Positions 35,084-39,272 of a stretch of 39,451 bases of DNA are shown here, one piece after another. Source of the stretch: Prevotella sp. Lineage in GTDB: Bacteria > Bacteroidota > Bacteroidia > Bacteroidales > Bacteroidaceae. The notes beneath the pieces are model-generated. The model ran no database searches. It saw nothing but the letters and a program-made list of their open reading frames with translations, and had not been told where the DNA came from. Position numbers and translations under genes: made by a program. The stretch spans positions 1 to 39,451 of the forward strand of contig JAFTGB010000006.1 in NCBI GenBank assembly GCA_017458125.1. The letters run 5' to 3'. How positions within the stretch are numbered: the first letter of the stretch is position 1; each line of letters begins with the position of its first letter.

Positions 35084-35308
35084 GACGTCAGCGCCTCATA
35101 ACCGTTTGATTTCCACGGCGTTGAAATTTTATGCCTGACGGCACCGAATTTTATGCCCCGCGGCACCAAAAAGTATCATCCGTTTTGGTAAATCGGGCAA
35201 TCAAATTTGGAACCGTCAGGCATAAAATTTGCCACCGTCGCCAATCTTTTTTACCACCGTCGCCAATCCTTTTCCATCGCATCGCTGGTAAAAATCACCC
35301 GCATCCCT
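35084..35308. other. Intergenic stretch made of repeats, no gene
   Basis: A frame at 35131-35367 can be translated, but it runs through the repeat array and into the promoter and leader at 35309, and it has no recognisable motif. The content is the mirrored 22-bp array described at 35125-35268. Confidence 0.6.
35125..35268. repeat. Second mirrored array with 22-bp period
   Basis: AATTTTATGCC starts at 35125 and 35147, and on the other arm ACCGTC starts at 35212, 35234 and 35256; all steps within an arm are 22 bp. CCACCGTCGCCAATC is repeated exactly at 35232 and 35254. AAATTTTATGCCTGACGG (35124-35141) is the perfect reverse complement of 35213-35230, so the arms face each other across about 70 bp. 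Core sequences differ from the array at 3169-3313, but period and head-to-head layout are the same. Confidence 0.88.
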
Positions 35309-35338
35309 TTGTCGTTTCAAAATTATTTCATATCTTTG
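35309..35338 (+). promoter_or_regulatory. Promoter, copy 1 of the shared promoter-leader
   Basis: TTG (35309-35311) and TATCTTTG (35331-35338) are separated by 19 nt. The surrounding bases GTTTCAAA-TTATT are shared with copies 2 and 3. Confidence 0.85.
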
Positions 35339-35344
35339 CAGCAT

Positions 35345-35413
35345 CGCTTGTTAGCCCTGAGGGGTGAGCGGGCGGTCTTATAGTATAAGAAAGACGTAGC
35401 AGTTACGACGATT
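35345..35413 (+). ncRNA. Shared leader RNA, copy 1 (toxin-antitoxin cassette)
   Basis: The leader begins near GCATCGCTTGTTAGCCCTGA. CGCT-AGCG can enclose a CCCT/GGGG hairpin, followed by a short CTTATA-G-TATAAG palindrome within GTCTT...AAGAC. The same sequence follows the promoters at 36001 and 36782. In copy 2 the palindrome reads CTTATT-GT-AATAAG, so pairing is kept although bases differ. Confidence 0.6.
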
Positions 35414-35647
35414 ATGGAAACAACAACAAGACGATACAGCACTTACCACTACGACCTCACACCATTTACCATGGAGGAACTGAACGCCCGTATTGATAAA
35501 GCCGAGACAGAAATTGCGGCTGGAAACGTCATTGACCACGAAGACTTATGGCGTGAGTTGGAAGAAGAGTTCGCAAAAGAGGATGCCGAGGAGGATGCCC
35601 GCTTTGCCAATTCATACGTTGAGGAAGAACAATTCGCAACGGTATGA
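35414..35647 (+). CDS. Antitoxin of a RelE/ParE-type toxin-antitoxin pair
   Basis: This 77-residue acidic protein begins METTTRRYSTYHYDLTPFTM. The MEELNARIDKAETEIAAGN and EDLWRELEEEFAKEDAEEDA segments are the helical, acidic kind that wraps RelE/ParE toxins in Bacteroidota. No clear DNA-binding domain can be named at the N-terminus, so autoregulation by operator binding is uncertain; the structured leader could replace it. The stop overlaps the toxin start by ATGA (4 nt). The first four codons are shared at DNA level with the small ORF of the next cassette. Confidence 0.75.
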   Translation: METTTRRYSTYHYDLTPFTMEELNARIDKAETEIAAGNVIDHEDLWRELEEEFAKEDAEEDARFANSYVEEEQFATV

Positions 35648-35955
35648 AGATAAAATGGAGTTCCACGGCCAGAGGTGACATGTGTCAGGTAGCCCGTTAC
35701 ATAACGAAAAAGTTCGGACGGAGAGCCAGAGAAGAATTCCTCCAGCGGATTAAGGACACAGAGAAACTTATCGAAAGCCAGCCGAACATTGGCCCTATTG
35801 ACCCGCTCTACGCCGACCGCGCCTTAACCTACCGTAGCGTCGTCATTAATGGCCTGAACAAAATGGTCTACCGCATAGATGGCGACATCATCTACATCGT
35901 TGATTTCTGGGACACCCGTCGCGAACCTGTTAGTAAGGCCTCGCAGACAGAGTAG
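35644..35955 (+). CDS. RelE/ParE family toxin
   Basis: This 103-residue basic protein (MKIKWSSTARGDMCQVARYI) has the fold and motif order of RelE/ParE toxins. Helices 1-2 include ARGDMCQVARYITKKFGRRA, then REEFLQRIKDTEKLIESQP. The beta-sheet carries YRSVVINGLNKMVYRIDGDI and the C-terminal strand IIYIVDFWDTRREP. ParE members poison gyrase and RelE members cut mRNA; the conserved residues visible here do not decide which. It is translationally coupled to the antitoxin gene. Confidence 0.85.
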   Translation: MKIKWSSTARGDMCQVARYITKKFGRRAREEFLQRIKDTEKLIESQPNIGPIDPLYADRALTYRSVVINGLNKMVYRIDGDIIYIVDFWDTRREPVSKASQTE

Positions 35956-36000
35956 CAAAACTTGTTAGCAGGACAGGCAAAAAATTCCTTGCCGTTATTT

Positions 36001-36030
36001 TTGCCATTTCAAATTTATTCCCTATCTTTG
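36001..36030 (+). promoter_or_regulatory. Promoter, copy 2 of the shared promoter-leader
   Basis: TTG (36001-36003) and TATCTTTG (36023-36030) are separated by 19 nt. The upstream sequence AAAAATTCCTTGCCG (from 35980) is shared with copy 3. Confidence 0.85.
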
Positions 36031-36106
36031 CAGCATCGCTTGTTAGCCCTGAGGGGTGAGCGGGCGGTCTTATTGTAATAAGAAAGACGAAGCAGCTACG
36101 ACGATT
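36031..36106 (+). ncRNA. Shared leader RNA, copy 2 (DUF6169-like cassette)
   Basis: Near-identical to copy 1 from CAGCATCGCTTG through AAGAAAGACG, and on through a linker (AGCAGCTACGACGATT, with TAGCAGTTACGACGATT in copy 1) to ATGGAAACAACA. The terminal palindrome has changed on both sides (CTTATT/AATAAG). Confidence 0.6.
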
Positions 36107-36235
36107 ATGGAAACAACACGCGAACAAGCTATCAACTGGCTCAAGGCAGCGCAAAAGCGTCAGCAGGAGTGGCAGCAGGAAGTGAAACAACGCTGGACCG
36201 AAAGACAGCAGAAGTCTATGGCAACAACAGCATGA
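36107..36235 (+). CDS. Small 42-residue helical protein, first gene of a coupled pair
   Basis: Translation gives METTREQAINWLKAAQKRQQ followed by a further Gln/Trp/Lys-rich helical stretch ending SMATTA. It starts at the same place relative to the leader as the antitoxin in copy 1, with the same METT start codons. Its stop overlaps the next gene's start by ATGA, exactly as in the toxin-antitoxin pair. I do not recognise a family. By layout it could be the antitoxin-like partner or a coupling leader peptide. It is too short for routine gene calling. Confidence 0.65.
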   Translation: METTREQAINWLKAAQKRQQEWQQEVKQRWTERQQKSMATTA

Positions 36236-36729
36236 AACTCTTCCAACTCGACCGCATTAATAAAATTGCCCCCTACGAGGTAAGTGTGGAGGGCAAGCAG
36301 TTTGTTTTCAGCACTATCCATGGTCTGCGCTATGAAGTGCGTTTCTTTGAGGAACAGCCCATTGGTGGCTGCGAGACATGGCAGTTCAGCTTTGCAAAAG
36401 CCAACAGCGAACCAGCTCCTGAAGACCCGTATGTTCGCTTTACCCTCTTCACTATCATTGACGAGTTCTTCCTTGAAAATCAGGACGTGCTGCTATATGT
36501 CTGCGATACCAGTGACAGCCGTGAAGCAGCTCGCAACCGTCTTTTTATACGCTGGTTCAAACAATCGGCTCAGCCTGACCGTTTTACTATCCGTTCTGCA
36601 AACACCGTTATAGAGGGCCAAGGCTTCTATGCAGCCATTATTGTTGAGAACAGTAATCCGCTGCTGACAGACATTACTGCCGACTTTGACCGAACGGCAG
36701 TATCGCTTACTAACAAACCAGGCGAATAG
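36232..36729 (+). CDS. DUF6169-like protein, second gene of a coupled pair
   Basis: This 165-residue protein begins MKLFQLDRINKIAPYEVSVE. VLLYVCDTSDSREAARNRLF followed by IRWF, and GFYAAIIVENSNPLL, match what I remember of DUF6169 proteins in Bacteroidota (function unknown). The start was set at the ATGA overlap with the small ORF rather than at the longer in-frame start 36169, which lies inside that ORF. It is compact, mixed alpha/beta and soluble, with no signal peptide. The cassette layout mirrors the toxin-antitoxin pair upstream, so a toxin or effector role is a hypothesis. Confidence 0.75.
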   Translation: MKLFQLDRINKIAPYEVSVEGKQFVFSTIHGLRYEVRFFEEQPIGGCETWQFSFAKANSEPAPEDPYVRFTLFTIIDEFFLENQDVLLYVCDTSDSREAARNRLFIRWFKQSAQPDRFTIRSANTVIEGQGFYAAIIVENSNPLLTDITADFDRTAVSLTNKPGE

Positions 36730-36781
36730 CAATAACACGCTTACAACGGGAGGGAAACTGAAAAATTCCTTGCCGTTTCCT

Positions 36782-36811
36782 TTGCCGTTTCAAATTTATT
36801 CCCTATCTTTG
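36782..36811 (+). promoter_or_regulatory. Promoter, copy 3 of the shared promoter-leader
   Basis: TTG (36782-36784) and TATCTTTG (36804-36811) are separated by 19 nt. It is identical to copy 2 across CAAATTTATTCCCTATCTTTG apart from flanking changes. Confidence 0.85.
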
Positions 36812-36817
36812 CAGCAT

Positions 36818-37088
36818 CGCTTGTTAGCCCCGAGGGGTGAGCGGGCGGTCTTATTGTATAAGAAAGACGTTTTCGAACGTCTGTCGTTGTGGGTCGTGAA
36901 CTTCGCAAATTCCATTCATCACAACAGGCAGATGGCAACGAAGCGTCACGTGGTGCGTATCTATATACCTTAAATATATAGTCCGTGCTGGCGTGGGCTA
37001 ACGAGCGTTGTCTATCCTGTGTGATGAGGGCAATGCGAAGGCCTACGACCCCAGGGTAGACTAAGAAGCAAACACCTACGCCTTTTTT
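36818..37088 (+). ncRNA. Structured RNA: shared leader, then branched domain ending in a U6 terminator
   Basis: The copy 3 leader matches copies 1-2 to AAGAAAGACG and then diverges into a 7-bp hairpin with a TTCG loop (36865-36882). Further helices are GTTGTG/CACAAC (36886-36891 with 36920-36925) and CTATATA/TATATAG (36961-36981). A 10-bp helix pairs GTCTATCCTG (37010-37019) with CAGGGTAGAC (37052-37061). A closing helix pairs GGCGTGGG (36990-36997) with CCTACGCC (37075-37082) and is followed directly by TTTTTT. It has no convincing ORF. It may be a stand-alone small RNA or an attenuating leader of the BspA-like gene. It resembles no RNA class I can name. Confidence 0.6.
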
Positions 37089-37164
37089 GTGCCGTAAGCC
37101 AACCCCCAAACGCATGACTTAATTGCCGAAGTTGAGGTGTGATAGGCAGAAAGAAAAGAGAAAA

Positions 37165-39051
37165 ATGAAGAAAAATTTACTAACCATGTTGCTGTCATTG
37201 CTCATCCCGTTAGGAGCTTTGGCACAGGAGGCTTATGCCGTGTTAACGGCTGACGGGACGCTTACATTCTACTATGACAACCAAAGGAGTGTAAGGGAAG
37301 GAACAACGTATGATTTGAATGCGGGAAGAAACCGTCCTGATTGGTATAAAGATAATGACGGTATAACACAAGTTATCTTTGATGCTTCGTTTCGCGATGC
37401 TCGGCCTTCGACTACTTATTCTTGGTTTCATGGCTGTACAAAATTGACTTCGTTGGATTTAAGCAACCTCAATACCAGTAATGTAACAGATATGAGTGAA
37501 ATGTTTGAATGGTGTACTGGGCTATCTTCATTAGATTTGAGTAATTTTGACACGAGTAATGTTACTGATATGGGGGCTATGTTTAGCTTTAGTCATATAG
37601 CATCAGTAAATTTAAGTAGTTTTGAGACAGGTAAAGTGACAGCCATGAATGCAATGTTTTCTTATTGTTCAAGCTTAACCTCGTTGGATTTGAGTAATTT
37701 TGACACCAGCAATGTTACGCAGATGAGCAGTATGTTCAAACAATGCTATGGACTAGTCTCATTGGATTTGAGTAATTTTGACACTCGAAATGTTACAGAT
37801 ATGAGTTCTATGTTTGATTACTGTTTCCAAATCTCCTCGTTGAATTTGAGTAATTTTAACACGGGCAATGTGGAGTATATGGAGAATATGTTCAGTGGCT
37901 GTCGCGGTCTGACATCATTGGATTTGAGCAACCTCAACACCAGCAATGTAACGAATATGAGCAATATGTTCAACGGCTGCAGCGGTTTGACATCATTGGA
38001 CTTGAGTAACCTCAACACCAGCAATGTAACGAGAATGGGCGGTATGTTCTATGACTGCCTCAGTCTGACTTCATTAGATTTGAGTAGTTTCGATACGAGT
38101 AATGTTACGGATATGAGTTCTATGTTCGGCGGTTGCTTTTCTCTTACAACTATCAATTGCGGTTTGGACTGGTCTACTGATAAGGTAACTAACTCCACTG
38201 ATATGTTTAAAGACTGTGTAGCACTTGTTGGTGGATATGGTACAGCTTACGATAGTAATTATATTGATAAAAGCTATGCATGCATAGACTTAGTCCCATA
38301 CTATTCTGGCTATTTGACATTGACACTTATATGTGACGAGAATAGTGAGGATTTGCCTTTGGCACTTGGCATGGAAACATGCATCAAGGTAAAACGTACT
38401 ATCAATGCAGACGAGTGGAGTACCATCAGTCTGCCGTTTGATATGACGGAAGAGCAAGTAAAGAAGGTCTTCGGAAATGACGTGCTGCTAAAAGAATATG
38501 TCGGTTATAATGTATATTTAGATAACGATAAAAACGTAACAGGCATTAATCTGAACTTTGTAGACGCGGACCTTACGAACGGGTTCCACTTGAACCACCC
38601 TTACCTAATAAAGGTGTCAAAGAACATAAAATCTTTTCTGGTTACTTCGACGATTAACGCTTCGAGTTGGGATGATGTGTATATAGAACAGTATGACGAA
38701 AAACGTGAGAAAAATATATACAGCGTGTTTTGGACAAATCCTGTAGCCAGAGTTTTGGATTCTGGTGAGTTATTCCTCAGCGGCAACAAATTCTGGTACT
38801 CGACGGGACTCACCAGGACAAAGGGGCTGCGGGCCAACTTCCGTTTAAGTGACCTCTTGATGTCGGCAAACGATGCTTCCGCCCGCATCAGCATGTCGTT
38901 CGACGACAGCGAGAGCACCACGGGAATAGGAAGCCTCACCCCGGCCCTCTCCGAAGACGATGGAGCTTACTACGACCTGAGCGGCCGCCGCGTGGAGAAG
39001 CCCGTGAAGGGTCTGTATATTAGAAACAACAAAAAAGTATTTGTGAAATGA
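37165..39051 (+). CDS. BspA-like surface protein with ten 24-residue repeats
   Basis: This 628-residue protein has a signal peptide (MKKNLLTMLLSLLIPLGALAQ). About ten repeats of the type LTSLDLSNFDTSNVTDMSSMF (24 residues; about 92-331) follow, the DUF285 / bacterial-surface-protein repeat related to leucine-rich repeats and linked to adhesion. A beta-sandwich region follows (INADEWSTISLPFDMTEEQV). The C-terminus has YDLSGRRVEKPVKGLYIRNN, a tail common on Prevotella surface proteins and possibly a sorting signal. The DNA up to about 38780 is AT-rich, and the last 270 nt are GC-rich like the core genes. The start at 37165 was chosen over 37123 for the signal peptide. The stop overlaps the next gene by ATGA. 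Confidence 0.9.
   Translation: MKKNLLTMLLSLLIPLGALAQEAYAVLTADGTLTFYYDNQRSVREGTTYDLNAGRNRPDWYKDNDGITQVIFDASFRDARPSTTYSWFHGCTKLTSLDLSNLNTSNVTDMSEMFEWCTGLSSLDLSNFDTSNVTDMGAMFSFSHIASVNLSSFETGKVTAMNAMFSYCSSLTSLDLSNFDTSNVTQMSSMFKQCYGLVSLDLSNFDTRNVTDMSSMFDYCFQISSLNLSNFNTGNVEYMENMFSGCRGLTSLDLSNLNTSNVTNMSNMFNGCSGLTSLDLSNLNTSNVTRMGGMFYDCLSLTSLDLSSFDTSNVTDMSSMFGGCFSLTTINCGLDWSTDKVTNSTDMFKDCVALVGGYGTAYDSNYIDKSYACIDLVPYYSGYLTLTLICDENSEDLPLALGMETCIKVKRTINADEWSTISLPFDMTEEQVKKVFGNDVLLKEYVGYNVYLDNDKNVTGINLNFVDADLTNGFHLNHPYLIKVSKNIKSFLVTSTINASSWDDVYIEQYDEKREKNIYSVFWTNPVARVLDSGELFLSGNKFWYSTGLTRTKGLRANFRLSDLLMSANDASARISMSFDDSESTTGIGSLTPALSEDDGAYYDLSGRRVEKPVKGLYIRNNKKVFVK
37438..38160 (+). repeat. Coding tandem repeats, 72 bp per unit
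   Basis: About ten 72-bp units encode the 24-residue repeats. Several neighbouring units are nearly identical in DNA (for example TTGGATTTGAGTAATTTTGA recurs), which favours slippage or recombination and repeat-number change. Confidence 0.85.
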
Positions 39052-39248
39052 AGAAGAACTATATTGCTCCGGCTATAACGAGAGAGGTTGCGCTGAAGGT
39101 ACACACCATGCTGTGTGCCTCCGGCGTGACGAGTGACGGCATTGGCTACGGTGGCGTGGACACTGGCGGCACCAAAGACCCTTCAGCCCGTGAAGGTGAC
39201 TTCTGGGACGATGAGGCTGATGACGAAAATTCCCATGGTTGGAAATAA
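39048..39248 (+). CDS. Small 66-residue protein coupled to the BspA-like gene
   Basis: The protein begins MKKNYIAPAITREVALKVHT. A short hydrophobic MLCASG is followed by a Gly/Asp-rich, strongly acidic tail (DDEADDENSHGWK). It has no signal peptide or cysteine framework. I recall similar MKKxYIxP small proteins in many Prevotella genomes without known function. The 4-nt ATGA overlap with the surface-protein stop implies translational coupling. The last codons (ENSHGWK) are encoded by a copy of the AAAATTCCCATGG palindromic element, so the repeat has contributed the C-terminus. Confidence 0.7.
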   Translation: MKKNYIAPAITREVALKVHTMLCASGVTSDGIGYGGVDTGGTKDPSAREGDFWDDEADDENSHGWK

Positions 39249-39272
39249 AATTCTGACCATCAGAATTTCTGT
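39228..39272. repeat. CCA-centred palindromes (second location)
   Basis: AAATTCTGA-CCA-TCAGAATTT (39248-39269) is a 9-bp perfect inverted repeat. Just upstream, AAAATTCCCATGG overlaps the end of the small-protein gene. Both correspond to the elements at 13577-13637 but in a different permutation. Confidence 0.75.

Follow-up and report, generated by a model that had tools for sequence, protein, structure and literature searches.

Most metabolite riboswitches precede genes of a shared pathway, whereas second-messenger riboswitches do not. Candidate structured RNAs from the human microbiome, Bacteroidetes candidates included, measure 27–219 bp (PMC8040213). FopS/GibS, a multicopy family of Bacteroides small RNAs (sRNAs) with sigma-ABfr promoters, is described as consisting of RNAs of about 65–70 nt that carry a single-stranded seed and one terminator hairpin and act in trans (PMC11697453). 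Here we analyze 39,451 nt of a Prevotella sp. contig (JAFTGB010000006.1, positions 1–39,451, forward strand; this whole stretch is the window), in which a promoter and the beginning of a leader RNA occur three times. The third copy is the only intact one and continues for about 220 nt beyond the shared part as a conserved element. With a probability of roughly 0.6, we consider it a member of a class of pseudoknotted Bacteroidales leader RNAs of about 300 nt that would act in cis as transcription attenuators.

The full-length leader and its distribution

The sequence TTTG-N19-TATCTTTG, which we take to represent Bacteroidota-type −33/−7 elements, is found at three places in the window (Table 1), each time followed directly 3' by CAGCATCGCTTGTTAGCCC (exact matches starting at 35339, 36031 and 36812). 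These matches bear out the three promoter-leader copies and the 19-nt spacing claimed in an earlier note on this DNA. The note had also suggested a common RNA regulator with conserved pairing in a leader of about 60 nt. This was right in kind but not in extent: judged by the alignments, the conserved unit is about 300 nt long, only copy 3 contains all of it, and the conserved pairing is mostly long-range and outside the 60 nt. The 60-nt leader was rejected as a unit, since copies 1 and 2, when folded locally, do not outperform shuffled sequences (z −1.1 and −0.9; copy 3, −2.9).

Copy 3 is regarded as intact because full-length relatives align with it over the whole stretch between promoter and T-run. 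Its likeness to copies 1 and 2 ends at AAGACG, the beginning of helix P3. Twelve full-length members align through the T-run and further, while more divergent members are alike chiefly in the 3' block. The element measures 232–435 nt, with a median of 299 (87 loci), counted from the promoter to the T-run. Positions 36780–37170 have three more near-full-length matches in the window's own genome (contigs C44, 86%; C77, 79%; C72, 79%), five matches to the first 80–91 nt only (the two other window copies, C54 twice and C77:360), three promoter-only matches of 33–34 nt (C54, C49 and C71) and two to the 3' block (C86 and C45). Matches occur in 18 of 60 relatives, several of them spanning about 280–390 nt; all tallies include the window's own genome.

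A model of the 3' core (R1), built from 21 sequences of this genome and its genus, matches 27 of the 60 relatives at E ≤0.001. It also matches 99 of 149 sampled genomes of the genus, with up to 14 matches per genome. In the wider samples, 52 of 295 genomes of the order have a match, and of 247 genomes of the phylum only one does, the window's own (eight matches). Distant members may be missed because R1 derives from this genome and genus and stricter filters applied to searches of more than 40 genomes. A DNA pattern identified at least 114 stretches in named contigs, 80 of which were listed as loci, and R1 recovers 79 of these 80 (the exception is L130). Among the matches listed are contigs titled Prevotella, Bacteroides bouchesdurhonensis, Xylanibacter rarus, Prevotellamassilia timonensis, Parabacteroides, Muribaculaceae and Paludibacteraceae, and four that, by title alone and with mis-binning possible, belong to Clostridium, Clostridia or Lachnospiraceae. 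A viral origin was set aside, as the same pattern found only three stretches in one scan of viral contigs.

Secondary structure

Most of the loci compared below were collected with a pattern in which K2 is fixed and K1, P6, P1alt and P12 are free; removal of duplicates reduced 108 candidate elements to 106. They share a conserved, covarying and aptamer-like fold. The kissing loop has two strands, K1 and K2, which complement each other exactly in 98 of 101 loci and fall into three sequence types (59, 37 and 2 loci), where random re-pairing of the observed types would by arithmetic give about 49 matches. A fourth type, TCTGGCA with TGCCAGA, is changed on both sides and is present in L067 and L071. 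Five of the 106 elements were left out of this count: L114 and L065, which are truncated where the stretch ends, L092 and L201, in which K1 truly fails, and L067, which has the fourth-type K1. The three non-matches are L096 and L082, with a matching site further upstream, and L196, which has lost its 5' part. In this last case (L196/L019, contig C86 of the window's genome) the 3' core and the downstream gene are intact, no promoter was found, K1 is altered and the 5' part looks as if it had been replaced.

P6 joins the strand after the K1 hairpin to the loop before K2. Its sequences differ between loci, and its mean Watson-Crick run is 6.86, compared with 3.89 (standard deviation, sd, 0.08; maximum 4.13) in 200 permutations between loci. 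The corresponding observed and permuted means (sd) are 8.07 and 7.18 (0.12) for P3 and 7.00 and 5.77 (0.13) for P4 in 99 loci, and 4.56 and 3.31 (0.11) for P5 and 5.44 and 5.01 (0.05) for P9 in 100 loci, the anchor being misplaced in some loci. In 103 loci (L091, L107 and L201, without a T-run, were left out) they are 7.80 and 7.39 (0.05) for P8, 7.83 and 6.73 (0.10) for P10 and 5.46 and 4.44 (0.10) for P12. The smaller of these differences are weaker evidence because permutation between loci leaves relatedness in. In the alignment of twelve close relatives, standard pairs fill 96.0% of the 941 pair cells, and covariation scores 0.169, more than in shuffles (0.115; 0 of 500 as high) or in slid versions (0.042–0.059). 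The number of further pair types in these relatives shows no excess (41 versus 39.0 in shuffles), and pairs changed on both sides are found only in P1, the kissing loop and P6.

Three further pairings were tried and put aside. The P1 hairpin as the main 5' structure gives no clear signal in the wide set (Watson-Crick run 4.83 versus 4.73, sd 0.08; 7.25 versus 6.59, sd 0.12, with G-U pairs). A core pairing of GCGTTG with CAATGC, mismatched by eye in L022 and L031, was replaced by P9, and a local GACGTT-TTCG-AACGTC hairpin was retained only as an alternative to the long-range P3.

A terminator-like helix and a competing 5' strand

At the level of sequence, P8 and the run behind it have the form of a terminator helix with a U-run: in 99 of the 103 loci with a recognized T-run (3 of 106 lack one), at least five of the eight nucleotides after P8 are T. 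The 5' strand of P8 and the junction after it have a complement in the first 36 nt of the RNA, a pairing that we call P1alt. In the 88 loci with both promoter and K1, the mean P1alt run is 8.98, versus 7.20 (sd 0.15; maximum 7.53) when permuted, and a control stretch gives a null result (6.06 versus 6.09). The 5' 36 nt are the top scorer of their locus in 58 of the 88, where about 2.9 would be expected. The best P1alt run overlaps P8 by at least 2 nt in 64 of 78 loci, and as far as complementarity goes the two pairings would be mutually exclusive. In the window P1alt takes the top GGG of P8 and P12 takes CCT of the other P8 strand; in L066, L123 and L144 the 5' strand resembles the 3' strand of P8 itself. 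The twelve close relatives have 91.9% of P1alt cells paired. Median duplex energies in 87 loci are −21.0 kcal/mol for P1alt, −15.8 for P8 and −10.5 for P12, those of P1alt and P8 being comparable, and nested folds of 36812–37160 reach −114.1 with P8 forced and −108.7 with P1alt forced.

An own promoter, a large constrained fold, a helix with a U-run, a conserved competing strand and a fixed distance to the start codon fit a riboswitch-like, cis-acting attenuator. In such a model, the promoter would start an RNA whose middle folds into P3–P6 and P9–P11, with the K1/K2 kissing loop holding the fold, and the closing helix P8 with its U-run would stop most transcripts some 75 nt short of the start codon. 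In the alternative state, the top of P8 on its 5' side and the following junction would be paired with the 5' strand of the RNA, and P12 would occupy the corresponding part of P8 on the 3' side. Together P1alt and P12 would weaken or open P8, allowing transcription to reach the gene. The choice between the states would fall to a signal that the folded middle reads, be it a ligand, an ion, a protein or an RNA. P12 is superfluous in the simplest form of this model and may act in the read-through RNA. A more specific reading is tentative and, in our estimate, falls somewhat short of even odds: a new class of signal-sensing leaders of about 300 nt, in genome samples found only in Bacteroidales, in which the kissing-loop fold decides between the terminator and an antiterminator formed by the 5' end, and a third helix spans the U-run.

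Several observations weigh against attenuation. The best P1alt run makes no contact with P8 in 13 of 78 loci, and the twelve close relatives show no two-sided pair change in P1alt or P8. The covariation of P1alt and P8 comes from the wide set, where permutation leaves relatedness in, and two of five whole-structure measures fail to separate the version with P1alt from shuffles. A simple terminator scan for loops of 3–8 nt did not report P8, whose loop is very large. P12 would be of no help in the first decision because it forms only after the U-run has been passed. Finally, the downstream genes share no pathway.

The same leader could instead act in cis after transcription, through protection of the mRNA or gating of translation by P12 and a bound protein, with a U-run that is no working terminator. 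P12 links the sequence before the U-run to the stretch separating the U-run from the start codon, a contact that plain attenuation would not require, and the loop of P8 is unusually large for a terminator. However, the T-rich run stands directly after P8 in nearly all loci in which one is recognizable, and the 5' strand is complementary to the 5' strand of P8 and its junction. We consider post-transcriptional action unlikely.

Table 1. Features of the three promoter-leader copies and their surroundings, in window positions
Feature	Position	Strand	Remarks
Promoter, copy 1	35308–35338	+	TTTG-N19-TATCTTTG; promoter type presumed
Truncated leader, copy 1	35339–35396	+	5' hairpin P1 and small palindrome, to AAGACG (P3 would start here)
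77-aa ORF METTTRRY...	35414–35647	+	judged an antitoxin solely from its position; no family reaches its cut-off
ParE-type toxin gene	35644–35955	+	PF05016, E 3.5e-8
Promoter, copy 2	36000–36030	+	sequence, repeat analysis
Truncated leader, copy 2	36031–36089	+	chimeric: upstream side copy 3-like, downstream side copy 1-like
42-aa ORF METTREQ...	36107–36235	+	no Pfam match
DUF6169 gene	36232–36729	+	PF19666, E 2.4e-30
Promoter, copy 3	36781–36811	+	sequence, repeat analysis
Full-length structured leader RNA	36812–37088	+	to U-run (37083–37088)
Local 5' hairpin P1	36816–36849	+	36816–36825/36840–36849; 36827–36830/36835–36838; weak support in wide set
P1alt 5' strand (candidate antiterminator)	36818–36830	+	pairs with 36995–37007, 13 bp
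P3	36866–36947	+	36866–36872/36941–36947; encloses P4 36878–36885/36927–36934 and P5 36898–36900/36910–36912
Kissing loop K1	36901–36907	+	pairs with K2 37034–37040
P6 5' strand	36916–36923	+	pairs with 37020–37027; hypervariable yet complementary
P9 5' strand	36936–36940	+	pairs with 37006–37010
P8, closing terminator-like helix	36990–37082	+	36990–36997/37075–37082, then TTTTTT
P10 and P11, inside P8		+	P10 37011–37018/37053–37060; P11 37028–37031/37041–37044
P12, pairing across U-run	37072–37140	+	37072–37077/37135–37140
Leucine-rich surface-protein gene	37165–39051	+	BspA / DUF285 / PARCEL-repeat; signal-peptide-like start

Downstream genes

As a rule the leader is followed directly, on its own strand, by a gene: an open reading frame (ORF) of at least 60 amino acids (aa) starts 110–260 nt after the start of the core in 90 of 102 loci, at a median distance of 176 (quartiles 164–184), compared with 19 on the opposite strand and 8 to 22 in six shifted windows, for which a subset of loci was used. 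Most loci have the promoter-like TAnnTTTG upstream and a U-run downstream. This arrangement, and the many copies per genome, would also suit a structured noncoding RNA acting in trans from its own promoter and terminator, with the downstream gene reached through read-through only. We regard this as improbable, since the gene start is found at a near-fixed distance on the same strand, where a trans-acting sRNA would have no fixed relation to its neighbor, and P12 pairs into the downstream mRNA.

The downstream genes are varied and do not belong to one metabolic pathway. Their census covers 81 proteins, hand-picked from 103 ORF references by leaving out short, doubtful or repeated ones, and these form 54 clusters, 43 of them singletons; neither families nor clusters reveal a strong functional theme. 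BspA-type leucine-rich repeat (LRR) proteins (LRR_5) and Cys-Xaa-Xaa-Xaa repeat (CXXX) radical-SAM target proteins are the commonest, with seven each, and two proteins contain LytTR. The gene downstream of L101 presumably has an AbiH-like start. By a rough ad hoc rule, signal-peptide-like starts are found in 42 of the 81 proteins and in 121 of 322 neighboring ORFs (Fisher p 0.023). L118 and L080 share a motif, TTGYGCCCGACACRAATTAGGG, just before the start codon and 150–165 nt after the start of the core, which is perhaps another small pseudoknot leader.

If a common signal is indeed sensed, it would control up to 14 loci per genome, including those for surface proteins, CXXX-repeat precursors of ribosomally synthesized and post-translationally modified peptides, LytTR regulators and others, and the several downstream genes per genome could be used in the search for it. 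An RNA present in about two thirds of the sampled genus genomes and unmatched in Rfam 15 suggests that major gut and rumen bacteria have an uncharted regulon. The tightly constrained pairings make fold, termination and switching directly testable, and the hypervariable but complementary P6 together with the kissing loop is good material for work on RNA three-dimensional structure.

The truncated copies

The three copies form one 98-nt direct-repeat family, with identities to copy 2, taken as the reference, of 95% for copy 3 and 80% for copy 1. The match between copies 2 and 3 is closest upstream of the leader. An additional 41-nt repeat (95%), which runs through the linker into the codons ATGGAAACAACA, is shared by copies 1 and 2 alone, in agreement with what the earlier note had said of them. 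We conclude that copies 1 and 2 are products of local recombination that keep the promoter and the 5' hairpin and lack the switch; they should therefore act as plain promoters. A free 5' strand is retained, and truncated copies might even pair in trans with full ones. With up to three mismatches, the 19-mer occurs at nine places in the window's genome (reversed-pattern control, 0). The junction specific to the truncation, at the same tolerance, occurs in only one of 150 sampled genus genomes (68 of them at least 90% complete), namely at four places in the window's own.

The 77-aa ORF and the ParE-type toxin gene follow copy 1, and the 42-aa ORF and the DUF6169 gene follow copy 2. The toxin exceeds the family cut-off for PF05016 (34.3 bits versus 23) and is thus of the ParE/RelE type; the sole family match of the 77-aa ORF is DUF1192, below its cut-off. 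Contig C54 of the same genome carries a paralogous toxin–DUF6169–LRR region with internal deletions; it holds two truncated leaders and a leaderless promoter, after which come the last part of the LRR gene and the first part of the small ORF that is its downstream neighbor in the window. Relative to window 35180–39250, the C54 loci L008/L018 have a DUF6169 gene without its middle and the end only of the LRR gene. The small ORF MKKNYIAPAITREVALK... directly follows the LRR gene in the window (39048–39248), and its start also trails the LRR remnant in C54. Upstream of copy 1 are two 22-nt direct repeats (82%; 35125–35168). In a relative (L030, G025:C34, about 1501–1650) the 5' part of the element is seemingly fused to a terminator-like 3' end by internal deletion.

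The remaining claims of the earlier note can be judged against these findings. Its recombining cassette holds locally, as copy 2 is chimeric and C54 carries a partly deleted version, but we found no evidence that the full element is mobile. It had reserved the name of simple local duplication for a leader confined to this locus without conserved pairing in relatives; this describes the truncated form and fails for the full element. The palindromes in which it saw pairing preserved are present (CTTATAGTATAAG in copy 1, CTTATTGTAATAAG in copy 2, CTTATTGTATAAG in copy 3), but a single compensated pair in a comparison of two copies carries little weight, and the stretch is missing or unalignable in more divergent members. 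A mobile or recombining promoter/RNA cassette without a regulatory role would account for the many copies before unrelated genes and for the truncated copies recombined in this genome, but is very improbable given that the other near-full-length copies in this genome are only 79–86% alike to that in the window, that pairing within copies is kept while the sequence changes, that one scan of viral contigs gave three stretches, and that no transposase or recombinase is common among the top 25 downstream families.

Comparison with known RNAs

In window 35100–37200, the covariance models of Rfam 15 had no hit up to E 5. At gathering thresholds they identified only a tRNA and a DUF805b beside the element in 18 loci, and up to E 1 in 8 loci four weak sub-threshold matches, none of which lies over the core by position. 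In L158 (698–732) the Rfam motif DUF805b is located directly 3' of the core, at the expected place of P12. Group II introns, omega RNAs and bridge RNAs were considered and provisionally set aside. In the open-access papers that we searched, we recognized no description of the element, and an earlier one of a fragment is possible. A term search of PMC11109978 returned no Bacteroidales name. The full element is not as such among the microbiome candidates, because these measure 27–219 bp. One of the Bacteroidetes candidates, HMP2_1881 (108 bp, near radical SAM domains; PMC8040213), might, at a guess, overlap with a fragment of the element. As far as the text cited above describes FopS/GibS, the element is not of that type, with a median length of 299 nt versus about 65–70 nt.

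The preferred reading, a cis-acting attenuator, places the element beside transcription-terminating riboswitches and protein- or RNA-responsive attenuators, which likewise combine a 5' leader, a covarying fold, a terminator-like helix with a U-run and a competing strand. It differs from them in its length of about 300 nt, in a competing strand that is the extreme 5' end of the RNA, and in presumed sensor parts (K2, P6, P9 and P10) that lie inside the terminator-like helix. It also has an extra helix across the U-run, unrelated downstream genes and no assigned ligand. In size and in having a complex conserved fold it is similar to the raiA motif/ModT and to OLE, GOLLD and ROOL. Unlike these large orphan RNAs, the element has no match in Rfam 15 and is tied to a downstream gene at a fixed distance.

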